From the NCBI GenBank assembly GCA_026993525.1, contig JALWSS010000209.1, forward strand, positions 1 through 36,919: a stretch of 36,919 nucleotides of DNA, written 5' to 3'. The notes under the pieces are model-generated. The model searched no databases and had not been told where the DNA came from. It saw nothing but the letters and a program-made list of their open reading frames with translations. Shown one piece after another: positions 9,108-35,919 of the stretch. The position numbers and the translations under genes are program-made. The DNA comes from Saprospiraceae bacterium (GTDB taxonomy: Bacteria > Bacteroidota > Bacteroidia > Chitinophagales > Saprospiraceae). Numbering within the stretch: the first letter of the stretch is position 1; every line of letters starts with the position of its first letter.

Positions 9108-9180
9108 ATGTTGGTTTAGAGGGGTTGAGCCCGACTTTCGTCGGGATCAACCCCTTTTAACCCCTCTAAACCCTATCCAT
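9108..9180. repeat. Intergenic repeat island A, left part
   Basis: Just after ndk lie a GGTTTAGAGGGGTTGAG word, the hairpin CCCGACTTTCGTCGGG (9130-9145) and a run of AACCCCTCTAAA-type units. The same words recur in the islands after miaE and msrB. No gene is visible. Confidence 0.7.
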
Positions 9181-9619
9181 TACCCACAAATCCATCATTC
9201 CGGTTCTGAGAGCTTTGACTCATAAAGTAACCGAGACTTGAAAAAGCATTCTCCACCCCCATCAAACATCTTGAAACCCCTTGTTTCCTGTCCGGCGGCC
9301 AGACGGGCAACAAGGGGTTGGCGGATAACCCCCAATCACATCAAACATCTTTACAGAGCATCAGCATCAATTTCAATTCACATCCCGAATTTGGTGCTAA
9401 AGCTATTCCTGATGTGATGTTTTGAATAGAAGTTGGATGTGTGTAGGGGTACTGGCAAGATTCCCGCCGTTGAAACAGCGGGTTACAAGATGGCTGATGT
9501 CGCCACGGTTTTTTGCCACAGCTAAGACAACAGGGTATAAAATGTTTCTTTTCACAATCAATGAAGTCGGGTTGCAGAGGCACTTCCCAATGGGGTTGGG
9601 ATTTGTGGGTAATGGATAG
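9173..9619. repeat. 447-bp element with perfect 21-bp terminal inverted repeats
   Basis: The 21 bp at 9173-9193 are the exact reverse complement of 9599-9619. Outside them, both flanks start with a CCCTCTAA-type word (left flank near 9161-9172, right flank 9620-9629), which could be a target duplication or just the surrounding repeat. Inside, an 11-bp hairpin (AACCCCTTGTT at 9275-9285 with AACAAGGGGTT at 9309-9319) encloses a 22-bp word at 9287-9308 that is found again at 35615-35636. No protein-like reading frame is present. It resembles a non-autonomous MITE-like element, but no related transposase is in the window, so mobility is an inference. Confidence 0.5.
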
Positions 9620-9679
9620 CCCTCTAACCCCCTCTGAACTCCTCTCTCAACCCCTCTAAACCCCTCTGAACCACCCCAC

Positions 9680-11668
9680 CTACTTCACCTCCACAATTTC
9701 CACACGGCGTTCCCGGGAGGCTTCCACACTGTAAATAGAATTGCGTTCGTCCTTCAGGTCATCGCTGACCGGAGCGGAGACCATTGTTTCACCGAAGGGA
9801 GCTTCAGAAATGATGAGCTGGCCACTGTCAAGGTAGTTCTCGAAGGCCCCGGCTTTCCAGGTCTGGAACTGATTCCTGACACAAGAGATGCGGCGTTGAG
9901 CCAGCCGGTCGTTGTAATCCGTTTCGGCCCTGGGGCTGGTAAATCCTTTCAGGACGATTTCCACGGTGTCGCCGGCCTGGAGGCGCCGGAGCAGGATTTC
10001 ACTGAAGCGCTCGAGGTGATCCATCCCTTTTTTCAGCTCTTCGTCAAAAAATGTCTCGATGGCGAGGGTGGCATCTGAGGCGGCATCGTCCTCCATGCCT
10101 TTGGTGTACCTGCGGACGTATTCGGCCTTGCGGTTGTAGTATTTGCCGAAGGTGGAGACGTAGGTCTTGCGGGTGGTGCGGCGGCGGGTGCGGCGGTCGG
10201 GTTCGTCGTTGTCGAAGTACAACTTCAGAGGCAGGAACTCTTCCAAAGTCGTTGGCAGTTCAGGTTCTTCTGTCACCGCAGGTGTTGGCGGCGGCGGGGG
10301 TTCAGCGGTGCTGCTGTCTTTTTTCTCTTCGTAAAACACACGCCACAGGTCGTAGCAACAGGCCTTGTTGCCGGCATCCAGGTAAAAAGAGCCCGGGCGG
10401 TTGGAGGCCAGCCATGCAGTTTTTCCATTTTCCGAAGGGGCATAATACAGGTCATTGAAAGAAGAGTTTACCGGTGGCCCCAGGTTTTCAATGGCTGACC
10501 ATTTTTCGCCTCCCGGGGTATCGGGAAAGGTTGCGGCAATTTTGAAAATGTCGTAACCGCCCAGTCCGGGGTGCCTGTCGGAGCTGAAATAAAGCACCTG
10601 CGCCCTGTCGTCGAAAAAGGGGGTAATTTCGTTTTGCGGGGTGTTCACCGCTTCCAGGTTTTGCGGTTCGGCAAACTTGCTTTCTTCCAAAACCGTGTAC
10701 CAGATGTCCAGTTTTCCTTTGCCGCCGGGCCTGTCGGACACGAAGTAAAGCACCTGCTTTTGCAGCACTGAGTCGAAGCCTATGCTGGGTTGGGTGGCGG
10801 TGTAACCGGGCACATTGATGTTGCTCTCCATGGGCCTGGGCGTTCGTTTCCACCTGCCTCTGCGGTCTTTTTCCCGATAGAATATCCGGCACCTGATATC
10901 GCTGTCGCTCACATAGTCGCAAACGGTGAAGTAAAACCTTTGCCCATCGGGGCTGATGGTGGCGTGAGCCGTGTGTTTTTCAGCAATGTTGAAGCCCCTG
11001 GGCACCAGGCGCCCCCGGCTGAGGTTTTTCGACATGAGCACTTTTGCGAGCTTGCGTTTGGGGCGGTGCTTGTCTTCGGAGAATTGGTAGCGGTAGCTGG
11101 AATAGAAGAGCGTGTCGCCTACCGGCAGCGGCCCAAATTCGGAATACCGGGTGTTGATGCGTTTGTCCAGGTGTTCCACCCGGATGATCTTGTCTTCCGG
11201 TGGAGCGGCTGATTTGGCCCACCGGCAGGTTCCTGTTTCCTCTTTGGCCCATGCACTCATGTAGTTGTCTTCCGGTTGCGAAGCGAGGAAAGCAGAAAAA
11301 GCGGCAATGGCTCCATCGTAGTTGCCGGCCACCTTTCTGAGCTGCCCCAGGCGAAACCAGGCCGCCGCAAAACGACGGGCGGTATCGGCTTCGGCCACTT
11401 TTTCAAAAAGGCCTTCGGCCAATCCATAGGCGTTGAAATTCCGGGCAGCATCGGCCTGTTTGTACCAAAGCCGGATTTCTTCGGGGGCCTTCTGAGCAGC
11501 ATTGAAATAATAGCTGTAGGCGGTGTAATAGTCTTTGGCGGCAAAGGCCTTGTCGCCAGCTTTTTCGAAGGCCTTGAGGGACTGGGCCTGCACCGCAGAA
11601 TTTCCTGCTGCAAACAACATTGCGGCAGCGAGAAAAAAAGCATGTAAAAACCTGGAAGTGTGCAACAT
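9680..11668 (-). CDS. PorE/OmpA-like envelope protein: TPR, PD40 propeller, OmpA domain
   Basis: The protein has 662 residues with an N-terminal signal peptide (to about residue 29, ...SAVQAQ). TPR-like helices span about 30-150 (AGDKAFAAKDYYTAYSYYFNAAQ). A beta-propeller of PD40/WD40-like repeats spans about 165-440 (ATISPDGQRFYFTV, QVLYFVSDRPGGKGKLDIW, QVLYFSSDRHPGLGGYDIF). A proline-rich linker (EPPPPPTPAV) leads to an OmpA-like domain beginning LKLYFDNDEPD and continuing through DTVEIVLKGFTSPRAETDYN to RERRVEIVEVK at the end. This order matches PorE of the type IX secretion system and related Bacteroidota OmpA proteins that bind peptidoglycan. I do not see PorE's extra carboxypeptidase-regulatory-like domain. 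It is the last gene of a four-gene operon, and repeat island A lies at its 3' end. Confidence 0.85.
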   Translation of the reverse strand: MLHTSRFLHAFFLAAAMLFAAGNSAVQAQSLKAFEKAGDKAFAAKDYYTAYSYYFNAAQKAPEEIRLWYKQADAARNFNAYGLAEGLFEKVAEADTARRFAAAWFRLGQLRKVAGNYDGAIAAFSAFLASQPEDNYMSAWAKEETGTCRWAKSAAPPEDKIIRVEHLDKRINTRYSEFGPLPVGDTLFYSSYRYQFSEDKHRPKRKLAKVLMSKNLSRGRLVPRGFNIAEKHTAHATISPDGQRFYFTVCDYVSDSDIRCRIFYREKDRRGRWKRTPRPMESNINVPGYTATQPSIGFDSVLQKQVLYFVSDRPGGKGKLDIWYTVLEESKFAEPQNLEAVNTPQNEITPFFDDRAQVLYFSSDRHPGLGGYDIFKIAATFPDTPGGEKWSAIENLGPPVNSSFNDLYYAPSENGKTAWLASNRPGSFYLDAGNKACCYDLWRVFYEEKKDSSTAEPPPPPTPAVTEEPELPTTLEEFLPLKLYFDNDEPDRRTRRRTTRKTYVSTFGKYYNRKAEYVRRYTKGMEDDAASDATLAIETFFDEELKKGMDHLERFSEILLRRLQAGDTVEIVLKGFTSPRAETDYNDRLAQRRISCVRNQFQTWKAGAFENYLDSGQLIISEAPFGETMVSAPVSDDLKDERNSIYSVEASRERRVEIVEVK

Positions 11669-11695
11669 CGGCCGATTAGCTTGTGGATTTCAGGT

Positions 11696-12610
11696 TCAGT
11701 GTTTTTTGAATGAAAATTGGAAGACATCCGGGCGGTTATAGTGCCCTGCAACATCGAACATTCGTTTGGAAGCTAAGATTTCCAAAAGGTCGATTTCTGC
11801 AATGACAAACTGCTTTTGACCTTCTACGGGGCCTGCCATAACATTTCCTTTTGGCCCAATAATGCAACTGTTTCCCGTGTTGATCCATTCCCGGCCGGCG
11901 GGGTACAATTCCTTGAAAGCAAGGCGATCCGGAATGTCGTTCATGTTCAAGGCCATGCAACAGCTGATCACAAAAAGGCCGCCTTCCCTGGCTGTATGCT
12001 TCATGGCTGTTAGCCACTGCGGGCTTTTGTCCCAGGTAGGTGCCGCCAATATTTGAGTGCCAAGCTGATACATGGCCATTCGTGCCAACGGCATCAGGTT
12101 CTCCCAACAGATCAGTCCGGCAATTTTTCCTGCTGAAGTAGCATACGACCTCAACGTGGAGCCATCGCCCTGTGCCCAAACGAGCCTTTCTCCTCCGGTG
12201 GGCATCAGTTTCCGGTGTTTGCCCAATAGCTCACCGGTGTCGCTGATGAATATTATGGAATTGAAAATGCTGCCCGATGAGTGTTCGGAATTTTTTTCAT
12301 GACAACCGATCACCACATTCACCCCGGCCCTGGCAGCAGCTTTGCAAAGCAATTCTGTTTCGGGGCCCGGGACATCCAGCGCGTTGTCTATTAGTTCAGC
12401 ATAGAGTGGATTCAGTTCTGCGCCTTTGCTGTTGGGTATCAACCACACCCAATCCGGATAACCTGCAATGAAAACTTCCGGGAAAACGAGCAACTGAATG
12501 CCCTCCTCTCCTGCCTTGCCGATCAAGCGGCAGGCCTTTTCCGTGGTGGCCTTTTTGTCGAGGTAAACCGGTGAGTCCTGTACTGCGGCAACTTTCACAA
12601 TCTTTCTCAT
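11696..12610 (-). CDS. Nitrilase-superfamily carbon-nitrogen hydrolase
   Basis: The 304-residue enzyme has the complete catalytic triad: Glu45 (LVFPEVFIAGYPDW), Lys134 (GKHRKLMPT) and Cys168 (LICWENLMPLARMAMY). The CWEN context and the terminal HYNRPDVF motif are typical of branch-1 nitrilases (aliphatic or aryl nitriles, cyanide hydratase group) rather than of omega-amidase or carbamoylputrescine branches. It would hydrolyse R-CN to acid and ammonia; the true substrate is unknown. It is cytoplasmic, with no signal peptide, which contrasts with its exported operon neighbours. Gaps are 27 bp to the PorE-like gene and 20 bp from the upstream lipoprotein gene. Confidence 0.9.
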   Translation of the reverse strand: MRKIVKVAAVQDSPVYLDKKATTEKACRLIGKAGEEGIQLLVFPEVFIAGYPDWVWLIPNSKGAELNPLYAELIDNALDVPGPETELLCKAAARAGVNVVIGCHEKNSEHSSGSIFNSIIFISDTGELLGKHRKLMPTGGERLVWAQGDGSTLRSYATSAGKIAGLICWENLMPLARMAMYQLGTQILAAPTWDKSPQWLTAMKHTAREGGLFVISCCMALNMNDIPDRLAFKELYPAGREWINTGNSCIIGPKGNVMAGPVEGQKQFVIAEIDLLEILASKRMFDVAGHYNRPDVFQFSFKKH

Positions 12611-12630
12611 GGCTGCTGATATGTGGTGGT

Positions 12631-13392
12631 TTAAAATTGGTGAAATAAACTGCCGGGCAGGTTTTCCGGTGCATCTATCTCCGTCAATGACCGTTTTCCC
12701 CGGTTGCCGCTGAGCAGGATTTTGCCGTGGCGCCGGTAGTCATCCCAGGGGGTGATGAAGTCCGGATTGCGGTTTTCATTTTTGCTGAAGTAGGCCCACT
12801 GGCTCACCAGTCTGGAAGATTTATCCACCCAGATGTGGTATTTGTTTTCGGGGGTTACCCCCACGGATTCAAAGGTGAGTTGCAGGATGTCGGCATCAGC
12901 GCCTTGCGCTGTTTTTCCTTCGCCAATGTATTTGAGGGTCACCCCGGAGTCTTTGAGTTTAAAAGGCATCAGCAGCCAGTAGCTGTCGTTGATCCAGTAA
13001 GCCATGGCCTTTTCCATGAGGGAATCAAGGGTGGCCGGGTCTTTCACTTCGGCTGCGCCAATGCGGGCCCTTCCTTTTCCGGTGTGTATGTTCAATAGAT
13101 AAGTTGCGCTGTCGGACAGTGATTCAATTCTGGCATCGCCGGTGCATTTGTTCCAATAATGTTTGCGGCGGCCAAAGAAATTCCAGGTGAGGTAGCAGGT
13201 TTCGTCCCAGGCTTTGCGGCCGCCCATGGCCTGCATCACCTCATCGGCAATGGCGATGGCCTGCGGGTCGGAGCCGGCTGCGTTGAAGCCCGGTGCGGGA
13301 GGATTGCCCACTTCTTTGGCTCCGAAGCAAGCAGCAAGACCCCATGCGATGGCAAGTGTCAAGGCCAGGTTGATGTTGTTTTTCAGCTTCAT
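12631..13392 (-). CDS. Putative lipoprotein of unknown function
   Basis: The 253-residue protein starts MKLKNNINLALTLAIAWGLAACFG, a lipoprotein signal with cysteine 22. The mature part contains IADEVMQAMGGRKAWDET, WINDSYWLLMPFKLKDSGV, a GEGKTAQGADADILQLTFE segment and WVDKSSRLVSQW. This pattern recalls LolA/LolB-like or outer-membrane-lipoprotein-sorting-like beta folds found in uncharacterised Bacteroidota lipoproteins, but I cannot name the family with certainty. It starts only 2 bp after the stop of the phosphodiesterase gene, implying translational coupling. Confidence 0.8.
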   Translation of the reverse strand: MKLKNNINLALTLAIAWGLAACFGAKEVGNPPAPGFNAAGSDPQAIAIADEVMQAMGGRKAWDETCYLTWNFFGRRKHYWNKCTGDARIESLSDSATYLLNIHTGKGRARIGAAEVKDPATLDSLMEKAMAYWINDSYWLLMPFKLKDSGVTLKYIGEGKTAQGADADILQLTFESVGVTPENKYHIWVDKSSRLVSQWAYFSKNENRNPDFITPWDDYRRHGKILLSGNRGKRSLTEIDAPENLPGSLFHQF

Positions 13393-13394
13393 AC

Positions 13395-14382: not shown

Positions 14383-14473
14383 TTGTCCCGACACATCAAT
14401 TGGACCGGCATGTCCGGTTCTTCATGTCGTAGCCCTTAAACGAATGGTGGATCCAGGGGCTTCGCCCGGGATC

Positions 14474-14578
14474 AGTGGACAGTGGACAGTGGACAGTGGA
14501 CAGTGGACAGTGGACAGTGGACAGTAGGCAGTGGGCAGTGGACAGTGGGCAGTGGACACTGGGCAGTGGACAGTGGGC
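14474..14578. repeat. Heptanucleotide tandem array (15 x 7 bp)
   Basis: There are fifteen consecutive 7-bp units. The first seven are perfect AGTGGAC. The rest are AGTAGGC, AGTGGGC, AGTGGAC or ACTGGGC, alternating mainly at the sixth base. It lies in the 3' region of cdaA. A flanking word GGGGCTTCGCCCGGG at 14458-14472 recurs inverted near 22916-22930. Confidence 0.95.
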
Positions 14579-14734
14579 CACCTGAAGTGCAAGCAACGAC
14601 GCATCTCAATTCCGGGAAAAGCTCGGGATAAAAACCCATCAAAAACCTTAAAAACCTTAAAAAACCTCCAAAAACCTCCAAAAACCTCCAATCCCGAGCT
14701 TGCCTCGGGACCAAAAACATCCAAACTCCAATCA
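14579..14734. repeat. Intergenic repeat island B, right part
   Basis: This stretch directly follows the cdaA stop codon on the transcript. It holds tandem AAAACCTT and AAAACCTCCA units (about 14640-14690) and the hairpin CCCGAGCTTGCCTCGGG (about 14693-14709). No gene is visible. Confidence 0.7.
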
Positions 14735-15556
14735 TCACAGCTCATAATGTTGGTTGATCAACTCCGTCAGCCTGCTTTCTGACAGGGCCATTTCGATGCT
14801 GCCTTGTTCTGCAAAGCTGATGGCGCCTGTTTCTTCGGAAACGACAAAAGCGACGGCGATGGTTCGTTCGGTGATGCCTACAGCCGCCCGGTGCCGCAAG
14901 CCGGCGGAAGGGGGCAATGCCATGCTTTCGGAAACGGGCAGGATGCACCCGGCAGCCAGTATTCTGCCTTTTCCAATCACTACGGCACCATCGTGGATGG
15001 GGCTTTCTTTGTTGAAGATGCTCTCGAGAAGCTCGGCACTGAGTCTGGCATCGAGGTTTACAAAGGTGTTGCTGATGCTTTGAAGCGCCAGACTTTTGGA
15101 AAAAACGATCAAGGCTCCGGTCTTGTCCTTGCTCAGGCGGAGCAATGCCGTTTTGATTTCCACCACATGGGTTTGACGCTCTTCGGAAGCGTCAAAATTC
15201 TTGTCCAGCCACCTTCGGAGAAAATTTGACCGGCCACGCAAAGTGGTATTCCCAAGCAAGAGCAGGAAACGTCTCACTTCCGGCTGGAAGATGATGATGA
15301 TAATGATGAACCCAACACTGACGAACTCACCCAGGATGACGGATAGCATTTCCATCTTGAGGGCATTCACAAGCCCATAGACCAGGTAAAGCATGAGCAC
15401 GCCAATGAATATATTAAAAGCAATGCTGCCCCTGAGCAACATGTAGATGCGGTACATGAGATAAGCCACTATGCTTATGTCCAGCACATCCCAGAAGCTC
15501 ACTTCCAGAAATCCGATCCGGAAAAGAAATACGGCATTGAAGTAGGTTGGGTCCAT
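14735..15556 (-). CDS. cdaA: Diadenylate cyclase (c-di-AMP synthase), membrane-bound CdaA type
   Basis: Condenses two ATP into the second messenger c-di-AMP. The protein has 273 residues with three N-terminal membrane helices (about 23-42, 45-66 and 72-90, the last rich in isoleucine) and a cytoplasmic DAC domain. The signatures are HDGAVVIGKGRILAAGCILP with DGA at 189-191, and GLRHRAAVGITE with RHR at 221-223. Length and topology match the CdaA/DacA family. In Firmicutes cdaA sits beside ybbR and glmM; here it stands alone, divergent from miaE, with a heptamer array and terminator in its 3' region. Implied downstream effects on cell wall or osmotic control come from other taxa only. Confidence 0.96.
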   Translation of the reverse strand: MDPTYFNAVFLFRIGFLEVSFWDVLDISIVAYLMYRIYMLLRGSIAFNIFIGVLMLYLVYGLVNALKMEMLSVILGEFVSVGFIIIIIIFQPEVRRFLLLLGNTTLRGRSNFLRRWLDKNFDASEERQTHVVEIKTALLRLSKDKTGALIVFSKSLALQSISNTFVNLDARLSAELLESIFNKESPIHDGAVVIGKGRILAAGCILPVSESMALPPSAGLRHRAAVGITERTIAVAFVVSEETGAISFAEQGSIEMALSESRLTELINQHYEL

Positions 15557-16294: not shown

Positions 16295-16410
16295 TCCCGA
16301 TCCCGAATCAAGTTCGGGATCGGGAGGTTGAGAGGGGTTGATCCCGAAACAAGTTAGGGAGGTTTAGAGAAGTTTAGAGAAGTTTAGTGGGGTTGAGAGG
16401 GGTTTAGAGG
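16295..16410. repeat. Intergenic repeat island C, left part
   Basis: It starts right after the miaE stop codon. A hairpin word (GATCCCGA...TCGGGATC) is followed by tandem purine-rich units of the AGGTTTAGAGAAGTTTAGAG and GGGGTTGAGAGG type, period about 10. No gene is visible. Confidence 0.7.
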
Positions 16411-16586
16411 AGTTGATACCGAAATAAGCCCGGGAGGTTCCGCATCAGGTTGCAACTTTCAGTTGCGGCCTCGATTGCAAACGCTGGCAGTGGTTCCAAA
16501 CCCTGCCAGCGTTGGGCTCCCAAAAACCCAGAGAAAAACCTCCGTGGGCTCAGTGGCCTCCGTGAGAGGCAATAAAAGTTGAGAGG
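16411..16586. repeat. 176-bp interspersed repeat, copy 1 of 3
   Basis: The unit runs from AGTTGATACCGAAATAAGCC to AATAAAAGTTGAGAGG. It contains two hairpins: GCAACT/AGTTGC and CGCTGGCAG/CTGCCAGCG (12-nt loop). It is almost identical to copy 3. Confidence 0.9.
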
Positions 16587-16620
16587 GGTTGATCCCGACT
16601 TTCGTCGGGAGGTTGAGAGG

Positions 16621-16796
16621 AGTTGATACCGAAATAAGCCCGGGAGGTTCCGCATCAGGTTGCAACTTTCAGTTGCGGCCTCGATTACAAACGCTGGCAG
16701 TGGTTCCAAACCCTGCCAGCGTTGGGCTCCCAAAAACCCAGAGAAAAACCTCTGTGGGCACCGTGGTCTCCGTGAGAGGCAATAAAAGTTGAGAGG
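16621..16796. repeat. 176-bp interspersed repeat, copy 2 of 3
   Basis: Starts 210 bp after copy 1; the gap holds the hairpin TCCCGACTTTCGTCGGGA (16593-16610). It differs from copies 1 and 3 in GATTACAAACG versus GATTGCAAACG and in a cluster near 16752-16769 (TCTGTGGGCACCGTGGTC). Both hairpin stems are conserved. Confidence 0.9.
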
Positions 16797-16806
16797 GGTT
16801 GAGAGG

Positions 16807-16982
16807 AGTTGATACCGAAATAAGCCCGGGAGGTTCCGCATCAGGTTGCAACTTTCAGTTGCGGCCTCGATTGCAAACGCTGGCAGTGGTTCCAAACCCT
16901 GCCAGCGTTGGGCTCCCAAAAACCCAGAGAAAAACCTCCGTGGGCTCAGTGGCCTCCGTGAGAGGCAATAAAAGTTGAGAGA
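16807..16982. repeat. 176-bp interspersed repeat, copy 3 of 3
   Basis: Starts 186 bp after copy 2. It matches copy 1 in the cluster where copy 2 differs. It is followed by a GATCCCGATCCCGAATCAAG hairpin word and AGTTGAGAGA tandem units up to about 17048. The remaining stretch to the sigma gene at 17247 shows no further repeat and no clear TAnnTTTG box. Confidence 0.9.
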
Positions 16983-17246
16983 GGTTGATCCCGATCCCGA
17001 ATCAAGTTCGGGACGGGAGGTTGAGAGAAGTTGAGAGAAGTTGAGAGGATACGACTGGTTTCGCATCATTTTTTGATTTCAAGTGAAATCAGTGGGATTC
17101 CGGCCTAACGGTGTGGCAGCTTTTTTGATTAACTTGGCTTGACATTTCAGATGTGGCTTCATTCAGTGAGTGTCCGACCTCAAAGTGCTTATCCAACAAT
17201 TCCTGTTTCATCAGCACCTTGAACCCAATTTCAAAACGACCTGACT

Positions 17247-19224: not shown

Positions 19225-19545
19225 TTTGGGGTTTTTATGGAGGATTATGAGGATTATGACCCCGATATTCATCGGGGATGAAGGATTATGACCCCGATAT
19301 TCATCGGGGATGAAGGGTTATGAAGGATTATGAAGGTTGTTGGTGGTTGTCCCCGATAGCCATGGGGGTCGGTTGGCGGTTGTCGGTTGTCGGTTGGAAG
19401 GAATACGCTGCTCAATTCTGTTTTTAACGCTCATTTCTATGTGGTTAAGAAGTTTAGGGTGTAGGGTGTAGGGTTTAGTGATGGAGGTGCTAGCTCTTTG
19501 ATCCCTCAATTCCTCAAATCCTCGATTCTTCCCTGCCTGTCGGCA
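19225..19545. repeat. Intergenic repeat island D (composite hairpins and tandem arrays)
   Basis: From left to right it contains: GGATTATGA units (period 9); the hairpin CCCCGATATTCATCGGGG twice; GGTTGTC heptamers (about 19370-19396); a unique core near 19411-19440; AGGGTGT heptamers; and TCCTCAA-type units with a CCTGCCTGTCGGCAGACAGG palindrome near 19532-19551. The block 19241-19291 is an exact inverted copy of 35846-35896, and 19440-19471 matches inverted 35645-35676 with one mismatch. No gene is visible. Confidence 0.9.
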
Positions 19546-22118: not shown

Positions 22119-22679
22119 ATGAAGTATTTTTTCTTCGCAATTGCAATTCTGACCCTGACCCCTTCCTGCCAAAAAGACGAAAGCCCCGCCCCCACCGGTG
22201 ACAATGTGCTGCATTACGACGGCGACAATTTCTCCGGCCCACTGCTGGCAGCCGGCACCCACGAGCTGGCTGTCAGGTTCCCCGCCGCTGACCTGGCCGC
22301 CCACAAGGGCAAGCGGATCAAAACCGTCAGTTTTTTTGCCGGCAACAAACCGGCAGATTGCAAGGTGTGTATCCTTGGCCAGGGCACTGCCACCTCACCC
22401 GGCCCCGTCATTTACCAGGCCACCGTCACCAACGACCTGTCAACCCCCGCCTGGAACACCCACATCATCGGCCCCAACCTCGTCATCGGCGATGAGGACA
22501 TTTGGGTTGCCATCCAGGTGCAACACCTGGCAGAGCAGCAGTCCATCGGCTGCGACGCCGGCCCCCGCAAAAACAACGGCGACTGGCTCTTCCTCAGCAC
22601 CGATGGCCAATGGAAGACCTTTGAGGAAAGAACCGGCCAAAGCGTGAACTGGAACATCAGATTGGTGTTGGAGGAATGA
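22119..22679 (+). CDS. Putative lipoprotein, beta-sandwich-like, function unknown
   Basis: The 186-residue protein starts MKYFFFAIAILTLTPSCQKD, a lipoprotein signal with cysteine 17. The mature part is rich in short beta segments (LHYDGDNFSGPLLAAGTHEL, KTVSFFAGN, PGPVIYQATV, DIWVAIQVQH, GDWLFLSTDGQWKTF) and ends WNIRLVLEE. This pattern recalls exported Bacteroidota carbohydrate- or ligand-binding sandwich modules, but I recognise no specific family. The stop codon overlaps the first unit of a 16-bp tandem array. It is divergent from the S9 peptidase. Confidence 0.8.
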   Translation: MKYFFFAIAILTLTPSCQKDESPAPTGDNVLHYDGDNFSGPLLAAGTHELAVRFPAADLAAHKGKRIKTVSFFAGNKPADCKVCILGQGTATSPGPVIYQATVTNDLSTPAWNTHIIGPNLVIGDEDIWVAIQVQHLAEQQSIGCDAGPRKNNGDWLFLSTDGQWKTFEERTGQSVNWNIRLVLEE

Positions 22680-22789
22680 GGAACTGAGGATGTGAGGAAC
22701 TGAGGATGTGAGGAACTGAGGATGTGAGGAACTGAGGATGTGAGGAACTGAGGATGTGAGGAACTGAGGATGTGAGGAACTGAGGATGT
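22678..22789. repeat. 16-bp perfect tandem array (7 copies)
   Basis: There are seven identical copies of GAGGAACTGAGGATGT. The first copy overlaps the lipoprotein stop codon (22677-22679). The unit is itself two related octamers (GAGGAACT, GAGGATGT). Confidence 0.95.
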
Positions 22790-22983
22790 GAGTCCCGACA
22801 TTCGTCGGGAGAGGATTTGAGGAACTGAAGAACTGAGCCCCGTGCCGATAATAATCGGCATCGGGGGAGGAACCGAGCCCCAGCCCAACCGTAAACCGCC
22901 AACCGCCAACTGATCCCGGGCGAAGCCCCGGGAACAACTGACAACTGACAACAACCTCCATAATCCTCTAAAATCCACAAACC
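22790..22983. repeat. Intergenic repeat island E, right part
   Basis: It contains the hairpin TCCCGACATTCGTCGGGA (22793-22810), the hairpin GTGCCGATAATAATCGGCAT, AACCGCC and GACAACT heptamers, and a CCCGGGCGAAGCCCC word that is the inverse of one at 14458. Its right end (about 22938-22975) parallels the segment at 35822-35850. No gene is visible; msrB starts right after it. Confidence 0.8.
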
Positions 22984-23508: not shown

Positions 23509-23726
23509 CAGTCCTTGTTTTGAGTCCCCCGATCCCAAAGCTGATGCCGATAGGTGTCGGCATCGGATTTCAGGATATCGGGGCAAAAAGTCATTTTCGA
23601 TTGGAGTTGTCTCCAGGTCCCGTTGTTTGGGAGAGGTCGAGATCAGCCTGTCTAAACCACTCTAAACCCCTCTAAACCTCTCCTAACCTCTCTCTCAACC
23701 TTTCCAAACTGCTGTGCGCTCTGTTG
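23509..23726. repeat. Intergenic repeat island F between convergent msrB and ftsE
   Basis: It holds the hairpin GATGCCGATAGGTGTCGGCATC (near 23541-23562) and a run of CTCTAAACCCCTCTAAACC-type units (about 23651-23705). These are the same words as in island A. No gene is visible. It may provide termination for both flanking genes. Confidence 0.7.
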
Positions 23727-24419: not shown

Positions 24420-24694
24420 TTAATGGTTTTTGTGTTGTGTTTCCTCGATTCCTCTCCCGACGAAAGTCGGGATCAGTTCTTCGATTCCTCGATTCTTCAT
24501 ATTCCAGGAGGCGGCCAGAGGCCGCAACTTAGGTGCGTCAACGAGCAAAGCAAGTGACGAGCCCAGGATTTTCAATGGCAACAACACTGGATTCATTCTT
24601 CAGTTCCTCTCCCGATCCCGAATTATTTCGGGACGGGGCTCAATTCTTCAGTTCCTCATTCCTCTCCCGATCCCGAATTTTTTCGGGACAGGAC
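24420..24694. repeat. Intergenic repeat island G between recF and ftsE
   Basis: It contains TTCCTCGATTCCTC-type units (period 8-9), the hairpin TCCCGACGAAAGTCGGGA (24455-24472), and two TCCCGATCCCGAATTNTTTC words near 24607 and 24667. A GGCCAGAGGCCGCAACTT segment near 24514 shares the GCCGCAAC word with the 176-bp repeats. No gene is visible. Confidence 0.75.
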
Positions 24695-25816
24695 TCAATT
24701 CCTCAATTCCTCCCCCATCACCGCCACTTTTCCAGCCTCCACCACAAATTTCCGGTATTCACCACCGAAATTCCGGGCGATGGCTTCGGCTTTTTCGGGG
24801 TGGGTGTCGGTGATGAATACCTGGCCAAAATCCCCTTCTACGAGCAGCCGGATGAGATGGTTCACCCTTTCGTCATCCAGTTTATCGAAGAGGTCATCCA
24901 GCAGGAGGATGGGTTTTACTTTTTTTTGTTGTTTCAGCAACTCGTACTGGGCCAGTTTGAGTGCAAGGACGAAGGATTTGAGCTGTCCTTGCGAAGCGAA
25001 GCGTTTGAGCGGCATGCCGTTGAGCAGGAATTCCAGGTCGTCTTTGTGAATGCCGCCGGTGGTTCGTTGCAGCACCCGGTCTTTTTCCCGGTTGGCCTCC
25101 ATCAGGCTGATAAAGCCGGTATCCTGCAATTGGGATTTGTATTTCAATTGCACCTCCTCCCGCCCCCCGCTGATAACCGTGAACTGCCGGTTGAACACCG
25201 GTTCAAAATTCCGGACAAAAGCCTGACGACACTGCAGGATGTACTCTGCCGGCACCTTCATTTTTTCGTCGTAAACCTGGAGCAAAGTCTGATCCCACTG
25301 GCGCTGTTCTGCCATCTGTTTGAGGGCAGCGTTCCGGCGTTGCAGCAGGCGGTTGTACGCCATCAACTCAGTGAGGTAACGGGCGTCCAGTTGGCAAAGG
25401 GTATTGTCAACAAAGCGGCGGCGCTCCTCGCTCCCTTCCAGTGCCAGGGCGGTGTCGTCAGGCGCTTTGAACACCACCGGAAAATGGCCGACGTGGTCGC
25501 TCAGCCTGTTGTGCGCTTTGCCGTCAATTTCCAGTTGCTTCAGCTGGCCGGGTACCACTTTGGCTACCACTTTCTGCGCTCCGCCATTTTTTTGAAAATA
25601 TCCCTCCAGGCGGAAAAAATCAGCACCGTTCCGGCGCACATTTCTGTCGTTGCCACTGAACCGGCTCTTGCCCATACAGAGGTAATAAACCGCATCCAGC
25701 AGGTTGGTTTTTCCCATGCCGTTGAGGCCCACTACCAGGTTGAGCCTGGGAGCAAATTCCAGTGATTGATATTCGTAATTTCGGAAATGGGTAATTATGA
25801 ACTTCTTTAAATGCAA
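24695..25816 (-). CDS. recF: DNA replication and repair protein RecF, TTG start
   Basis: RecF loads RecA with RecO and RecR at single-strand gaps. The protein has 373 residues, close to the usual 360-370. Walker A is VVGLNGMGKTNLLDAVYYLC. The ABC/SMC-type signature is RFASQGQLKSFVLALKLAQY, and Walker B is PILLLDDLFDKLDDERV. I place the start at TTG 25816 (then HLKKFIITHFRNYEYQSLEF) for two reasons: homology begins exactly there, and a perfect -7 box lies at 25847-25840. The frame continues upstream to an ATG at 25876, but that region includes the promoter and a terminator hairpin. Confidence 0.93.
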   Translation of the reverse strand: MHLKKFIITHFRNYEYQSLEFAPRLNLVVGLNGMGKTNLLDAVYYLCMGKSRFSGNDRNVRRNGADFFRLEGYFQKNGGAQKVVAKVVPGQLKQLEIDGKAHNRLSDHVGHFPVVFKAPDDTALALEGSEERRRFVDNTLCQLDARYLTELMAYNRLLQRRNAALKQMAEQRQWDQTLLQVYDEKMKVPAEYILQCRQAFVRNFEPVFNRQFTVISGGREEVQLKYKSQLQDTGFISLMEANREKDRVLQRTTGGIHKDDLEFLLNGMPLKRFASQGQLKSFVLALKLAQYELLKQQKKVKPILLLDDLFDKLDDERVNHLIRLLVEGDFGQVFITDTHPEKAEAIARNFGGEYRKFVVEAGKVAVMGEELRN

Positions 25817-31136: not shown

Positions 31137-31169
31137 GCAGTGCACCGAGGTTGATTCAGACGGCAAGAT

Positions 31170-31198
31170 AAAAAAAGGCAGCAGCCGAAGCTACTGCC
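31170..31198 (-). terminator. Rho-independent terminator of the coiled-coil protein gene
   Basis: On the minus strand GGCAGTAGC and GCTGCTGCC (31198-31177) form a stem around a TTCG loop with one internal mismatch, followed by TTTTTTT to 31170. It starts 63 nt after the stop codon of the gene at 31262 and separates it from the glycosidase-like gene. Confidence 0.85.
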
Positions 31199-31261
31199 CA
31201 AAAACAACTTCTATTGAGATAAAGGCTTTCCGAATCTGGTGGCCGGAGGGGTCCGGCGGAT

Positions 31262-32299
31262 TTACCTGGTGACTACTTTTCCACGCTCGATGATCTTGAC
31301 CCGGTTGTTTCGCAACTGGTAGATCATTCCGTCTTTGTAGTAGTACAGGCGCAATTCATAATTCTTGCTTTCTTTTTTCTGGCTGTTGAAATACCTGATG
31401 CCTACCGGCTGCCCCCGGTAAACGAAAGCAAAACCTTTGTTGCCCACCGGGCTGTCGGGGTATTCCGGATTGAACTCGTTGAAAGGCACCACTTTGTGCT
31501 GGTCGAGGTCGTAAACCTGAACGAGGAACTCCTCGCCTACCAGCACTTCCGGGTCCTGGTGATTCAATACGAAATTGAGTAGTACATATTGCCAGTTGTT
31601 GCCTGCCCGCTTCAGGGCCGGGCCGTTCTGGTCTTCTTTCACCACGATCTCACCAAATTGCACTTCGGTAAAACCGAGAATGGAAGCCAGTTTTTTCTGG
31701 GGTGCGTGTTCAACTTTTTCGTCCTCAATGCCGGTCATTGGCGCTGCCGGTTCTTCATTGAGGCTTTGTTTGGTTTCGTTGAGTTCAGCAGCCTGCTCGT
31801 TGGTCATTCCCAACTCACCTCTCAGTTTGCTGATTTGCTGCTGCATCTTCATGCGCTCCTTGTCGGCGGTTTCCATTGAAATCAGCAGTTGGTTGCGCTC
31901 CTGTTCCAACCGGGCCACCCGGGCGTCTTTGGCAACGTTTTCTGACTTGAGCCTGTTGATGGCGGCTGTGAGCTGCTTTACTTTGTCTTCCTGCTGTTGT
32001 ATTCTTCCGCTAAGCTTCTGCACCTTCGACTTCAGGCGGTTGATCTCGACTTTGAAATCTTCAATCCTGGCATTGAGCAGGACGATGGAGTCGCTCAGGA
32101 TGAACACCTGGCCTTCCAGCTCTTCGTTTCTCTGAACTTCACGGTCCAACAGATCGCGGGTCTGTAAAAGTTTTTCATTGGTCGTCTGGAGCAGGTTTCT
32201 GAGGTCATTGATAACATCCGATTGATAAACGACCAGGCAAGCCAGGGTCAGCGCACTGGTCAAACTGACAATCAACGGAAGTCTTTTTGTCAATAGCAT
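31262..32299 (-). CDS. Membrane-anchored coiled-coil protein, function unknown
   Basis: The 345-residue protein has a single N-terminal membrane helix (about 8-25: LPLIVSLTSALTLACLVVYQ). A long heptad-repeat coiled coil follows (about 28-185: DLRNLLQTTNEKLLQTRDLL through LNARIEDFKVEINRLKSKVQ to LRGELGMTNEQAAELNETKQ). After a short acidic linker comes a beta-rich C-terminal domain (about 215-345: VQFGEIVVKEDQNGP, YVLLNFVLNHQDPEVLVGEE, GFAFVYRGQPVGIRYFN, LRLYYYKDGMIYQLRNNRVK). Topology suggests a periplasmic rod with a distal domain. I recognise no family. It has its own terminator and is divergent from the region to the right. Confidence 0.8.
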   Translation of the reverse strand: MLLTKRLPLIVSLTSALTLACLVVYQSDVINDLRNLLQTTNEKLLQTRDLLDREVQRNEELEGQVFILSDSIVLLNARIEDFKVEINRLKSKVQKLSGRIQQQEDKVKQLTAAINRLKSENVAKDARVARLEQERNQLLISMETADKERMKMQQQISKLRGELGMTNEQAAELNETKQSLNEEPAAPMTGIEDEKVEHAPQKKLASILGFTEVQFGEIVVKEDQNGPALKRAGNNWQYVLLNFVLNHQDPEVLVGEEFLVQVYDLDQHKVVPFNEFNPEYPDSPVGNKGFAFVYRGQPVGIRYFNSQKKESKNYELRLYYYKDGMIYQLRNNRVKIIERGKVVTR

Positions 32300-32502
32300 G
32301 GGATAATAATTTGAATGTTCACGGGCTACCCCCTGCCATTGGGTACTGTTAATAACGTTGCAGGGGATGGGTTAGGTTGTTCACAGGTGTTGTTTATTTT
32401 AACAAAATTTCAATCTGTAACTATTTGTCCTTCATTTCAAAACAGGAACACATGAGAGAATTTCAAATATTGTTCCAACTTTGAATTTGTACTCCTGTAA
32501 AT
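32300..32502. other. Intergenic region, AT-rich part of a divergent gap
   Basis: No gene or repeat is seen. The stretch is more AT-rich than the flanks (for example TTTATTTTAACAAAATTTC near 32392-32410). It probably contains the promoter of the leftward coiled-coil gene, but I find no exact TAnnTTTG on that strand. Confidence 0.35.
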
Positions 32503-32655
32503 ATGAGTGAACAAGGTGCAGTGTCCGTCAGTAGTGTTTGGGAGAGAAGAAAAAAGAAATTGGTTGAAGGATTATTAGGAAAGAAGAGAAGAAATCAGAA
32601 ATTTGCGATTCCGGTTACGTTACGACCTTCAAACAAGAGTTTTTCTTCCTGCTGA
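32503..32655 (+). CDS. Possible small basic protein (50 residues)
   Basis: An ATG at 32503 opens a 50-codon frame ending in TGA at 32655. The peptide starts MSEQGAVSVSSVWERRKKKL, is strongly basic in the middle (GKKRRNQK) and ends SFSSC. A near-consensus -7 box CAACTTTG lies upstream near 32475-32482 (one mismatch to TAnnTTTG). It fills an otherwise gene-free gap. It could be a real small nucleic-acid-binding or ribosome-associated peptide, or a chance frame; the evidence is weak. From 32656 to 32832 I see nothing else. Confidence 0.3.
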   Translation: MSEQGAVSVSSVWERRKKKLVEGLLGKKRRNQKFAIPVTLRPSNKSFSSC

Positions 32656-32832
32656 GGTGTACGCAACTTTTCCAACTTGGTTACCTGTTTCGTTTTCCTT
32701 GTGATCTACCCTGTCCAGAACTCCTGTTCTGTTCTCAATGCTTGAATAAAAACTGACTGGTTGTCAGCTATGGCAACAACGGCAGCACCAATTTTCCCAT
32801 TTGGAAGTGTGCAATCCAGAAAACCGGCTGCA

Positions 32833-33492
32833 ATGCAAATCATAATTACACAAGACGGATCGCCAACCATCCGGCTGGAGGATGAAGGTGTCACCTACCA
32901 CTCCAGGTACGGTGCAGTACAGGAGAGCCAGCACGTTTTCATCGAAGCGGGGCTTTATTACAAGGCCGTCACGAACAAAGACCTGAACATCCTGGAGGTA
33001 GGTTTCGGAACCGGGCTTAACACTTTTCTTACATGCCTCGAAGTGGACCGGCTCAACCTGAACGTTCACTACACCGCACTGGATACCAATCCCTTGACCG
33101 AAGAGCTTTTCACCATGCTCAATTATGCCACATTCCTGCAGGAGCCTTCAACCAATGAGCTGTTTCTCAAGCTTCACCGATGCGATTGGGAAAAGGAAAA
33201 CCTCATTGGCAAGGGATTCAAGCTGCTGAAGAAAAACTTCAAAGCCGAAGAATGGCGCTCGGAAAACAGCTATGACCTCATTTACTACGATGCCTTTGCC
33301 CCCGGTAGCCAGCCGGAATTGTGGACACCGCAAGTGATGCAAAACATGTATGACTCTTTGAAGGAAGGCGGCGTACTGGTAACCTACAGTGCAAAAAGTG
33401 CTTTCAAACGAACTTTGAAAAACGCCGGTTTCGAGGTGGAAGCCCTGCCCGGACCTCCCGGCAAAAGAGAAATGACCAGGGCCATAAAATGA
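32833..33492 (+). CDS. mnmD: MnmD-like tRNA mnm5(s2)U34 methyltransferase
   Basis: The 219-residue SAM-dependent methyltransferase starts at ATG 32833 (MQIIITQDGSPTIRLEDEGV). It shows the DUF752/MnmC2 pattern: YHSRYGAVQESQHVFIEAGL, motif I LNILEVGFGTGLNTFLT, YTALDTNPLTEE, the catalytic DLIYYDAFAPGSQPELWTPQ, and GGVLVTYSAKSAFKRTLKNA. It lacks the FAD-dependent MnmC1 domain, so it corresponds to the stand-alone enzyme MnmD, which methylates the aminomethyl group at wobble uridine 34. Its start is distinct from a TTG 24 codons upstream (32761) whose extension does not resemble the family. A DinB-family gene follows 52 bp later. Confidence 0.9.
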   Translation: MQIIITQDGSPTIRLEDEGVTYHSRYGAVQESQHVFIEAGLYYKAVTNKDLNILEVGFGTGLNTFLTCLEVDRLNLNVHYTALDTNPLTEELFTMLNYATFLQEPSTNELFLKLHRCDWEKENLIGKGFKLLKKNFKAEEWRSENSYDLIYYDAFAPGSQPELWTPQVMQNMYDSLKEGGVLVTYSAKSAFKRTLKNAGFEVEALPGPPGKREMTRAIK

Positions 33493-33544
33493 GAACCGGG
33501 TTTTGAAGAGTACATTTGCTGCCACAACCAGAAAATGCCCTCTC

Positions 33545-34093
33545 ATGTCGAAGTATCAATCAACACTGGAAAAACTCAACCGGGAACTCGAATCCCTGCT
33601 CACACACCTTTCTTCATTCCCTTCGGAAAAACTACAGGAGAGACCCGCCCCCGGCGCCTGGTCGGTGGTGGAAGTGATGCAACACCTGATGCTGGCCGAG
33701 CGGCTCTCGGTGGGCTATGTGAGAAAGAAAATCCAGTACCCGCATGGACTGAAGAAGCCCGGCCTGGAAAACAGGATCCGGCTGCTTATGCTTCGTTTTT
33801 TCCTGGAAGTACCCATCAAATTCAAAGCACCCGCTATTGTTTCGGAACAAAAGTTCAGCAATGATGTGGACTTTGACACGCTGGCAAAAAAGTGGCGTGA
33901 AATCAGGGTGGAGCTGGGCAAGCTGCTGGATGAGATTCCACCGGAACTGGAAAAGACCAACATCTACAAACACGCCGTGGCCGGGCGGCTTACCCTGGCT
34001 GGGATGTTCCGGTTCTTCACCGGCCATTTCAGACGGCACCGAAAACAAATTGAAAGGACCCTCAAAGCCGTGGGTGCCGGTCAAACCGTCTAA
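33545..34093 (+). CDS. DinB-family (YfiT/DinB_2-like) protein
   Basis: The 182-residue protein is predicted to be a four-helix bundle. It begins MSKYQSTLEKLNRELESLLT, and PAPGAWSVVEVMQHLMLAER is the typical DinB_2 segment carrying the first metal-binding histidine. The second site is FTGHFRRHRKQIERTLKAVG, with the terminal histidines. The family includes thiol-dependent and other metal enzymes, and function cannot be predicted. It probably forms an operon with mnmD. Its TAA stop overlaps the stop of convergent nupC by 4 bp in total. Confidence 0.85.
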   Translation: MSKYQSTLEKLNRELESLLTHLSSFPSEKLQERPAPGAWSVVEVMQHLMLAERLSVGYVRKKIQYPHGLKKPGLENRIRLLMLRFFLEVPIKFKAPAIVSEQKFSNDVDFDTLAKKWREIRVELGKLLDEIPPELEKTNIYKHAVAGRLTLAGMFRFFTGHFRRHRKQIERTLKAVGAGQTV

Positions 34094-35391
34094 ACGAGCA
34101 GGCTGGCGAAAATGGCGGTAAAGAAGGCCGCTATGGTACCGCCGATCATGGCCTTGAAGCTCAGCTCCGTGAGGTTTTGCCGCTGGCCGGGAGCCAGGGC
34201 ACTGATGCCACCGATCTGTATTCCGATGGAAGCAAAATTGGCGAAGCCGCAAAGGGCATAAGTAGCAATCAAAACGGATTTTTCCTGAAGTACCGGTGCC
34301 ACTCCGGGTATTTGGGCGTAAGCGTAAAACTCATTGATAGCTGTTTTCATACCCAGCAACTGACCCACCACGGTGCAATCCTCCCAGGGCACACCCAGCA
34401 ACCAGGCCACCGGTGCAAACACAACTCCCAGCACATACTCGATGGTAAAGCCGGAAAACCGGCCATCCGTACTTTTTACAATGGCTTCGTTCCAGCCGAA
34501 CCAGTCGCCAAAACCGTGTTCCAGGCCGTAATTGACCATGCTGATAAAAGCCGTGAACACCAGCAACATGATGCCCACATTGACCGCCAGGCGGAAGCCA
34601 TCGGTGCTGCCCCGGGTGATGGCATCGAGCACGTTGTTGCCGGATTTCTCTTTGGGTACGTCCAGTTTTTGGGCCTCGAGGGGTATCTCGCCTTTCAACG
34701 GGTACAGAATCTTGGCCGCAACGATGGCCGCCGGAGCCGACATGATGGAGGCATTGAGCAGGTGGCGGGCAAACAACTGCTGCTCCACCGGATCATCACC
34801 ACCCAGGAAACCCACATAGGCCGCGAACACACTGCCGGCGATGGTGGCAAAGCCCCCGGTCATCAGGCACATGATCTCAGAGCGGGACATGCCCTCCAGG
34901 TAAGGCCGTATCACCAGCGGAGCCTCCGTCTGGCCGATGAACACATTGGCAGCAGCAGCCAGGCTTTCAGCGCCGGTCAGTTTCATGGTTTTGCTCATCA
35001 CCCAGGCAATGCCCTTTGTGATGAGTTGCAGAATGCCGAAGTAGTACAACATGGAAGAAACCGCCGAGAAGAACACGATGGTCGGTAGGATTTTGAACAC
35101 GAAATTGTTAAGTGCGGTATCCACTTCGGCTGCGCCAAACGGCGTGAGCAGAAAGTCCGTACCGGCATGGGTAAAGTCCAGCACCTTCACAAAGAAATGG
35201 GCGATCCCGTCAAAAACGTGGGTAATAACGTCCACTTTCAGCACCAACACCCCCATAACAAGCTGCAGCAACAGGCCGGCCCCCACCAGCCGCCAGTTGA
35301 TGGATTTCCGGTCGTAACTAAGGGCATACAGAAATGCGATCATTACCGCCAACCCAAACAACGCTCTTACCAGGGTAATCAAAAAGTCCAT
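34090..35391 (-). CDS. nupC: Concentrative nucleoside transporter, NupC/CNT family
   Basis: The 433-residue inner-membrane protein has about ten hydrophobic segments, starting MDFLITLVRALFGLAVMIAF. Family motifs are visible: FVFKILPTIVFFSAVSSMLY, NVFIGQTEAPLVIRPYLEGM, MTGGFATIAGSVFAAYVGFL and TYALCGFANFASIGIQIGG. It imports nucleosides with protons or sodium. The frame continues 55 codons upstream of 35391 into the heptamer array, but that stretch merely reflects the repeat (RVTCHASRVTRHVLRVT), and a -7 box at 35428-35421 supports the ATG at 35391. Confidence 0.95.
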   Translation of the reverse strand: MDFLITLVRALFGLAVMIAFLYALSYDRKSINWRLVGAGLLLQLVMGVLVLKVDVITHVFDGIAHFFVKVLDFTHAGTDFLLTPFGAAEVDTALNNFVFKILPTIVFFSAVSSMLYYFGILQLITKGIAWVMSKTMKLTGAESLAAAANVFIGQTEAPLVIRPYLEGMSRSEIMCLMTGGFATIAGSVFAAYVGFLGGDDPVEQQLFARHLLNASIMSAPAAIVAAKILYPLKGEIPLEAQKLDVPKEKSGNNVLDAITRGSTDGFRLAVNVGIMLLVFTAFISMVNYGLEHGFGDWFGWNEAIVKSTDGRFSGFTIEYVLGVVFAPVAWLLGVPWEDCTVVGQLLGMKTAINEFYAYAQIPGVAPVLQEKSVLIATYALCGFANFASIGIQIGGISALAPGQRQNLTELSFKAMIGGTIAAFFTAIFASLLV

Positions 35392-35420
35392 GCTCAAAGT
35401 GGTTTTCGTGAAAAGACGGC

Positions 35421-35428
35421 CAAATGTA
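35421..35428 (-). promoter_or_regulatory. -7 box of nupC
   Basis: On the minus strand it reads TACATTTG, a perfect TAnnTTTG match, 29 bp before the ATG at 35391 and 22 bp from the edge of the heptamer array. Confidence 0.5.
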
Positions 35429-35449
35429 GGGAATTTGATTTTTAGGATA

Positions 35450-35526
35450 GCGTGACACGTGATGCGTGACGCGTAACACGTGACGCGTAACACGTGACGC
35501 GTAACACGTGACGCGTGACACGTGAC
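35450..35526. repeat. Heptanucleotide tandem array (11 x 7 bp)
   Basis: There are eleven consecutive 7-bp units of the type GCGTGAC, ACGTGAC and GCGTAAC, alternating so that the true period is partly 14 bp. It is full of ACGCGT and CACGTG palindromes. It lies just upstream of the nupC promoter. Confidence 0.95.
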
Positions 35527-35919
35527 GCGTTGGCTTGGTCTGAAATAAGGTGCCAAACCCTACACCCTACACCCTACACTTTAAACTCTAAACCCCCGTC
35601 TGGCCTGGCGCCAGCCTGTCCGGCGGCCAGACGGGCCGGACAGGCTACACCCTACACCCTAAACTCCTTAACCACAGCGTAATCGGAGTTGAAAACAGAG
35701 TTGAATCCCGAGACAAGCTCGGGACCAACCGGCAACCGACCCCGATGCCGATAATTATCGGCACGGGGACAACCGACAACCGACAACCGACCCCGATGCC
35801 GATAATTATCGGCACGGGGACAACCGACAACAACCCTCATAATCCTCATAATCCTTCATCCCCGATGAATATCGGGGTCATAATCCTCATAATCCTTATA
35901 ATCCCCAACCCAGCAACCA
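35527..35919. repeat. Intergenic repeat island H (composite), 3' of lptE
   Basis: From left to right it contains: ACCCTAC heptamers (about 35556-35580); GC-rich nested palindromes (35599-35646) including the 22-bp word shared with 9287-9308; more CCTACAC heptamers; a core at about 35660-35710; the hairpin GATGCCGATAATTATCGGCA twice; CGACAAC heptamers; and the period-9 TCATAATCC units around CCCCGATGAATATCGGGG. It is the inverted counterpart of island D. No gene is visible. Confidence 0.9.

Follow-up and report, generated by a model that had tools for sequence, protein, structure and literature searches.

The short tandemly repeated repetitive (STRR) sequences of heterocystous cyanobacteria are heptamers dispersed through the genome. 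Here we describe islands of short tandem arrays and perfect hairpins downstream of genes in a 36,919-nucleotide stretch of a Saprospiraceae bacterium (contig JALWSS010000209.1, below called the window), and compare them with repeat systems described elsewhere. In Xanthomonas and Nostoc, G-rich heptameric GGGNATC repeats are mostly intergenic and, in the part of that report available to us (Rehm et al. 2015, PMC4692102), are under-represented between divergent genes, lie in sense orientation at most 50 bp from stop codons, some overlapping them, and in antisense near starts, form paired convergent-orientation sites in Xanthomonas, and usually preserve their repeat type between two species. The TAACTGA heptamers of Beggiatoaceae, Cyanobacteria and five Bacteroidetes (MacGregor 2015, PMC4679880) resemble the islands in being sporadic direct repeats with stops in three frames, some of which overlap upstream stops; they differ in using a single word placed mostly just upstream of starts in the main genome, and the accessible text describes no hairpin islands. 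Repetitive extragenic palindromes (REPs) of the GTAG and CGTC families are, in the accessible portion of the source, small palindromes with alternative complementary stems that, like the islands, lie mostly between co-directional or convergent genes near 3' ends, and GTAG REPs often supply the TAG stop of the adjoining open reading frame (ORF) (PMC3733652). Unlike REPs, the hairpins here have no GTAG or CGTC foot, the genome's Y1 transposase genes lack these hairpins, and it is the arrays that supply the stop.

With the GGGNATC repeats the islands share short G-rich tandem intergenic units at many loci, placed in sense just after stops, in antisense just before starts, and scarce in divergent gaps. 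For the positional rule, clear precedents exist in the GGGNATC work (Rehm et al. 2015, PMC4692102) and in that on REPs (PMC3733652). Without a match in the available parts of those precedents are the many-word vocabulary (about ten families of 7–10 nt, G-rich on one strand, compared with one word type per genome for GGGNATC), the independent words at the two edges of a gap, the phase-locked hairpins, the change of word at conserved stops, and docked ends that mostly lack intrinsic terminators. With regard to G-quadruplexes, several of the island words carry only GG runs. Repeats of this sort are known from other bacteria, of which the many-word, swappable version seems a new form. Among the matches listed from the open-licence literature none described such islands in Saprospiraceae, Bacteroidetes or Bacteroidota or at stops, and nothing on Rho together with intergenic repeats was found in that literature. 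Stop-proximal, sense-strand G-rich repeats recur in Xanthomonas, in Nostoc and now, with unrelated words, in a Saprospirales-related genome. With many words present in a single genome, the rule (dock on a stop, point inward) can be told apart from the word, and the word differences between two related species at shared stops make insertion bias and transcript-end selection distinguishable by test. We read the islands as short-repeat accretions that settled at gene 3' ends and were trimmed by purifying selection, an account to which we give an even chance.

Arrays at stop codons and gap orientation

The window (contig C209) belongs to a 5.16-Mb genome, from which we sampled 61 stretches (the window and 60 others; 990 kb, 657 called genes). 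About 20 of the 60 were picked because the 18-mer TCCCGACTTTCGTCGGGA occurred on their contig, a further 7 lengthen those contigs, and the Y1 genes lie on 2 others, so hairpin density is inflated in this sample. Genes were called with a purpose-made dicodon ORF caller, which leaves starts uncertain. The comparisons of gap class and orientation were made a second time in the congener G004, the nearest relative found, whose stretches were taken by contig number and length except for two word-search matches (C16 and C63). Arrays were scored with Tandem Repeats Finder at a score of at least 40 for counts per gap class and stop-triplet contacts and at least 30 for edge orientation and terminators, so array counts differ slightly between tests.

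Of 413 downstream gaps of at least 60 bp, 241 carried repeats, and in 75 of these the first repeat base lay at most 3 nt from the stop, overlapping it in 42; on start sides such proximity was seen in 9/187. The stops contacted by arrays were TGA (42), TAG (23) and TAA (2), compared with 299 TGA, 153 TAA and 75 TAG in other genes, a TAA share of 2/67 versus 153/527 (p=2e-7). In the 60 of 101 cases listed, TGA stops often opened TGAGGAAC, TGAGGGA or TGACTCG arrays, and TAG stops often opened TAGGGTG, TAGGGAG or TAGCTCG arrays. The array unit contained the contacted stop triplet at 40/56 contacts (TGA 24/33, TAG 15/21, TAA 1/2). Outermost arrays at most 3 nt from a stop were G-rich on the sense strand in 59/61 cases (50/58 in G004), and those 4–20 nt before a start were G-rich on the antisense strand in 17/19 (25/28 in G004). 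Among 194 gaps of both genomes with at least two arrays, the G-rich strands pointed inward in 136, outward in 9 and in mixed fashion in 49. The stricter rule is one of arrays, which dock on TGA or TAG stops and, from either neighbouring gene, run G-rich into the gap.

Similarity between the two edge words of a gap did not exceed that of random pairs (median 0.11 versus 0.13; 47 gaps, window's genome only), so an island is not one palindromic insertion. An insertion with arrays as its arms was accordingly ruled out. Inward arrays, independent edge words and a TGA/TAG foothold are also what would be expected if an enzyme or strand-switching polymerase had added G-rich words to both 3' ends of a break, which were then joined as in fused telomeres. 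Bacterial reverse transcriptases that make tandem-repeat DNA do exist, DRT10 being a precedent in the part of the report available (PMC12632851). Matches to the reverse transcriptase family RVT_1, however, numbered 0 in the window's genome and 1 in G004, none of 14 genus members had a Ku match, the many words would demand many templates, and the inward bias weakens away from genes. A telomerase-like reverse transcriptase was rejected on the RVT_1 result and non-homologous end joining on the Ku result, and we consider repeat addition at breaks very improbable.

Islands also followed gap orientation. The initial annotation had listed six divergent gaps in the window, all free of islands; one of them, 8419–8673, lies within a 554-aa DHH/DHHA1 (RecJ-like) gene (7405–9069, minus strand) and is not a gap, so there are five, and none holds an island. 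Among window gaps of at least 100 bp, islands occurred in 8/12 non-divergent and 0/5 divergent ones (Fisher p=0.03). Over the 990 kb, gaps of at least 100 bp with at least 20 bp of repeat, a tally mixing arrays, hairpins and interspersed repeats, made up 22/87 divergent, 126/221 co-directional and 47/57 convergent gaps (divergent versus rest, p=1.6e-9). Arrays alone were found in 14/87, 90/221 and 35/57 of these classes, in 13/113, 77/263 and 31/49 in G004, and in 1/16, 8/61 and 1/8 in ten other, array-poor congeners. The proposed 3'-end bias was thus borne out in the window and across the sample. Equal occurrence in all gap classes, named beforehand as the refuting outcome, was not seen in the two array-rich genomes, although divergent gaps were not repeat-free; their avoidance is a strong tendency and no absolute rule.

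Perfect hairpins with arms of at least 7 nt showed the same order in the 990 kb (per kb, 0.51 for divergent, 1.8 for co-directional and 2.55 for convergent gaps), with 0.14–0.18 per kb in shuffled gaps and 0.29 per kb in the coding DNA of 25 stretches. Arrays covered 5.6% of divergent, 10.7% of co-directional and 11.0% of convergent gap sequence and 0.35% of coding bp. Periods 7, 10, 8 and 9 dominated the noncoding arrays, and the words and hairpins of the islands were shared across the genome.

G004 follows the docking and inward rule, with many island positions kept and the words changed. Of 101 orthologous gaps, 82 were non-divergent, with an array in 19 (window's genome) and 16 (G004), 13 in both and 22 in either; the 19 divergent gaps had arrays in 4 and 2, with 2 in both. 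The words differed at conserved stops p50, p56, p63 and p95. At p50, TGA with a GAGGAATC array in the window's genome corresponded to TAG with a degenerate TAGGG-like tract, unscored as an array, in G004; at p56, a GGTTGTC array corresponded to a GGATTATGG array. The gap between the MiaE-like and RpoD-like genes measured 952 bp in the window and 253 bp in G004, and by eye no island was seen there in ten other congeners; the left island edge in this gap was also judged by eye, a three-sequence alignment having placed it badly.

These comparisons bear on the possibility that the arrays are neutral microsatellites arisen by chance, whose stop-filled repeats create the ORF ends that they touch as a by-product of gene calling. 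Among 118 orthologue pairs, few for such a test, 24 had a docked array in one species or both, and their C-termini were collinear in 17 and shifted, mostly by 1–3 residues, in 7, compared with 84/94 collinear and 10/94 shifted among pairs without a docked array; in a distant genus (locus L188) the array begins a few codons ahead of the stop that ends a long ORF. The excess of shifts would favour such an origin, whereas the collinear majority is consistent with docking on pre-existing stops. The start-side rule, genome-wide shared words, phase-locked hairpins and conserved positions would all be unexpected. Neutral microsatellites are already contradicted as a full account, and we give them less credence than any other explanation considered here.

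Outside the pair of array-rich genomes the words were scarce. In ten other species of the genus, 215 kb yielded only 13 noncoding arrays. GAGGAAYYG occurred in 3/150 and TAGGGWG in 5/150 family genomes, the window's genome included; these samples hold two genus members only and not G004. One array word was found in 1/395 genomes searched across the phylum, the window's own. In a script check of six other-genus loci, a long ORF stopped within the first array units in L188, L196 and L197, the array began ~16 nt past the stop in L195, and no long ORF ended at the array in L190 and L194. One genome of another genus (G051) had 528 GAGGAAYYG array matches, and a reversed control pattern of the family word search picked up AGGGATG-type arrays in a further genome (G012, 34 matches).

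Hairpins and mobile-element traits

The 18-mer TCCCGACTTTCGTCGGGA has 28 copies in the genome and was absent from all 39 relatives searched, 13 of them same-genus. In noncoding copies of the CCGA-N6-TCGG core, outer pairs 1 and 2 and inner pair 1 were complementary in 121, 121 and 120 of 125, with three pair types at each of these positions, and the third outer pair was at chance (27/125); in coding DNA the same three pairs were complementary in 3, 3 and 4 of 10. The observation that stems are kept while loops vary was therefore correct, with the counts referring to copies and not to independent events. Either selection on structure or template switching that corrects palindromes could produce such covariation. 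Two hairpin types sat within arrays at fixed orientation and phase, usually as NTGA-hairpin-GAGG or ATGA-hairpin-ATGA: type A (TCCCGAC-NTTC-GTCGGGA) had the orientation of the flanking G-rich strand in 39/39 copies, and for type B the lock to the array word held in 13/13.

These flanks would fit a transposase, REP/RAYT-like (REP-associated tyrosine transposase) or other, that inserted hairpins or islands at TGA-like targets with the arrays as by-product. Most type A copies had NTGA or TGAG before them and GAGG after them, and type B lay between ATGA (9/13) and ATGA or ATGG (13/13), which resembles short target duplications. The island cores and a ~447-bp element in island 1 are interspersed repeats, and the genome has two Y1 (PF01797, RAYT-like) transposase genes, at L009 and L010. 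Both Y1 genes, however, are flanked by palindromes of other types (CCGTTCC-GGAACGG and CGATCTCCGATCG) and not by hairpin types A–D, the left and right edge words of gaps are unrelated, and the orientation lock needs no separate insertion for each copy if hairpins move along with their arrays. The feet of types A, B and D were NTGA/TGAG, ATGA, TTTG and similar in place of GTAG/CGTC; for type A, GTAG was 1 of 39 following tetramers, and neither GTAG nor CGTC was among the 37 preceding tetramers listed. We regard a mobile-element product as improbable. The suggestion of a mobile repeat that spares promoters held insofar as cores and element are interspersed and divergent gaps tend to be avoided; the strict rule belongs to the stop-docked, inward G-rich tandem arrays.

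A REP/RAYT origin of the island hairpins was rejected, both Y1 genes carrying other palindrome families; each has its own (CCGTTCCGTAGGAACGG type and GTCGATCTCCGATCGAC type), unrelated to the island hairpins. The ~447-bp element has the traits of a miniature inverted-repeat transposable element (MITE), namely terminal inverted repeats (21 bp, perfect) and numerous similar copies: its 19-letter terminus pattern had 35 genome-wide matches, its repeat depth in the sample was 14, and seven inverted pairs of termini spanned about 427–490 bp. A related stretch is present in G004 (L103).

Transcript ends

Vocabulary hairpins were followed by a T-run in 0/196 strand readings, compared with 42/184 for other hairpins (those of convergent and divergent gaps read on both strands). 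They are therefore not intrinsic terminators, and the idea that they end transcription by themselves found no support. Docked ends, defined as those with an array at most 10 nt from the stop and pooled over the two genomes, were poor in intrinsic-terminator-like sites: 9/66 versus 46/112 array-free convergent ends (p=1e-4), and 8/100 versus 72/398 array-free co-directional ends (p=0.014). Where the array lay 11–60 nt past the stop the counts were 3/37 and 7/47, and where arrays came later in the gap, 23/26 and 12/16 terminators lay before the first array. Shuffled controls gave such sites in 1–5% (first 300 nt). Among the orthologue pairs with docking confined to one species, a small set of 14, a terminator-like site was present at the undocked gene in 3 and absent from both species in 11. 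One of the 3 (L063 gene 1) ends in a clear hairpin with T-run in the window's genome and in a docked array in G004 (L154).

These results would fit islands that are selected RNA elements, functional transcript ends in which the sense RNA passes from a stop-laden G-rich array through hairpins to a C-rich, G-poor array, the C-rich arm loading Rho, the fold protecting the 3' end, and both directions being served in convergent gaps. A Rho gene is encoded in the genome. Predicted folding of island RNA was strong (median z –3.58 versus –1.06 in plain gaps, 40 gaps each; z<–3 in 22/40 versus 5/40), and 60-nt C-rich sense stretches were more frequent in array than in array-free gaps (convergent 0.32 versus 0.07, co-directional 0.46 versus 0.15). 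Stem covariation, and the keeping of island positions while words change, point the same way, and the features of docked ends appear compatible with a Rho-type end. Against this, the vocabulary hairpins lack T-runs, the 398 co-directional and 112 convergent array-free ends indicate that islands are not required at gene ends, the vocabulary is shared with G004 yet scarce in other congeners and the family members sampled, and the folding and C-rich excess are partly due to the inward G-to-C layout and to composition. We view selected RNA elements as the main rival of the accretion account, though less likely than it.

A more specific proposal makes stops docking sites for exchangeable G-to-C cassettes that, in one lineage, would have replaced intrinsic terminators at many gene ends, the first repeat triplet serving as the stop; words would be swapped while site, orientation and bidirectional, probably Rho-type, termination are kept. 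We think this doubtful at best. In a bolder form, G-rich words would have been added independently to each gene-facing 3' end and the ends fused afterwards in a telomere-like way.

If the islands are instead accretions trimmed by selection, array tracts would spread between islands by short-homology template switching, with a shared TGA or TAG as the likely foothold, and lengthen by slippage, and palindromes would stay perfect through selection or palindrome-correcting template switching. A tract reaching an ORF end would survive if it supplied an in-frame stop, and tracts rich in GAGG together with ATG, GTG or TTG would be purged from leaders, where the C-rich orientation would remain. A docked island would tend to occupy the place of an intrinsic terminator, and its C-rich, G-poor far arm might serve as a Rho loading site. 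A termination role would be a secondary step, perhaps taken over later.

Several observations weigh against accretion and trimming. A pure translation filter accounts for arrays in contact with stops, yet the G-rich sense bias persists 4–60 nt past the stop (50/59 in the window's genome, 52/61 in G004). Where both outermost arrays were more than 60 nt from genes, 13 gaps were inward, 5 outward and 9 mixed, and the inward excess at this distance keeps room for an edge-based mechanism. Stop triplet and array word do not always match, type D hairpins were locked in orientation in only 8/11 copies, and the array-poor congeners make any word-spreading process lineage-limited. The lack of terminators could mean that neutral repeats displaced them, or that docking took place where none had existed. 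Part of the excess of C-rich stretches stems from composition and length, since shuffled array gaps reached 0.16–0.19 and array gaps are the longer ones. Nothing in the data is a direct record of transposition, recombination or an RNA event.

Islands of the window

All eight islands reported for the window were present when its sequence was re-examined. They consist of tandem arrays, with periods mostly of 7–10 nt, perfect 18–20-nt hairpins and longer cores, and of the 41 perfect hairpins in the window (arm at least 6, loop 3–8, at least 4 GC per arm), 23 lie in the 3,171 island bases. Island 8 repeats the module order of island 4 in inverted orientation. A search of the window against Rfam 15 gave 0 matches above the gathering score.

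Table 1. Positions and composition of the repeat islands in the window (strand left empty where none is assigned)
Feature	Position	Strand	Description
Island 1	9110–9675	–	3' of minus-strand gene 9680–11668
Island 1 array	9619–9672		10-nt, CCTCTAAACC type
Island 1 hairpin	9130–9145		CCCGACTTTCGTCGGG
Island 1 MITE-like element	9173–9619		~447 bp, perfect 21-bp terminal inverted repeats CTATCCATTACCCACAAATCC, inside array
Island 2	14450–14720	–	3' of c-di-AMP cyclase-like gene (DAC, 14735–15556 minus)
Island 2 arrays	14473–14576; 14631–14691		CAGTGGA; CAAAAACCTC
Island 2 hairpin	14692–14710		TCCCGAGCTTGCCTCGGGA
Island 3	16295–17050	+	Starts directly after TGA stop of MiaE-like gene
Island 3 hairpins	16295–16325 (nested); 16593–16610		Plus 10-nt arrays
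Island 3 core	16392–16994		~186–210 bp, three copies
Island 4	19225–19545	–	9/10-nt array GGATTATGA
Island 4 hairpins	19260–19277; 19292–19309		CCCCGATATTCATCGGGG
Island 4 7-nt arrays			GGTTGTC and TAGGGTG types
Island 5	22677–22975	+	Array TGAGGAACTGAGGATG begins on TGA stop of gene 22119–22679
Island 5 hairpins	22793–22810; 22843–22860; 22914–22933		
Island 6	23509–23726		Convergent gap; hairpin 23543–23564
Island 6 array	23647–23693		10-nt; G-rich on sense strand of minus gene
Island 7	24420–24712	–	8-nt TTCCTCAA-type array reaching into 3' end of gene 24695–25816, whose TGA stop lies within the array
Island 7 hairpins	24455–24472; 24616–24633; 24671–24688		
Island 8	35450–35915	–	3' of LptE-like gene (35920–36372 minus)
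Island 8 arrays			GGATTATGA, GGTTGTC, TAGGGTG, GCGTGAC types
Island 8 hairpins	35706–35724; 35746–35763; 35797–35814; 35860–35877		

Beyond the end of island 3, GTGGCAGCTTTTTTGATTAACTTGGC (17100–17180) lies upstream of the RpoD-like gene and has similar sequence in congeners; it is probably the promoter of that gene. The DAC gene has an 86%-identical relative in record PAAY01000010.1. Elsewhere in the genome, a core of ~240–300 bp is found repeatedly within GAGGAATT arrays (L024 13209–13872, L044 13988–14765, L015 8656–9200); its ends are of GAGTSCACTGCAAAAA type and its inner hairpins of CCGGACGGAGTCCGG type. A palindromic element with TATACTCAAAACGAAGTGGTT ends, apparently TA-flanked, occupies a divergent gap (L015 9999–10400), and in G004 it lies at a different place in the same divergent gap (p17).

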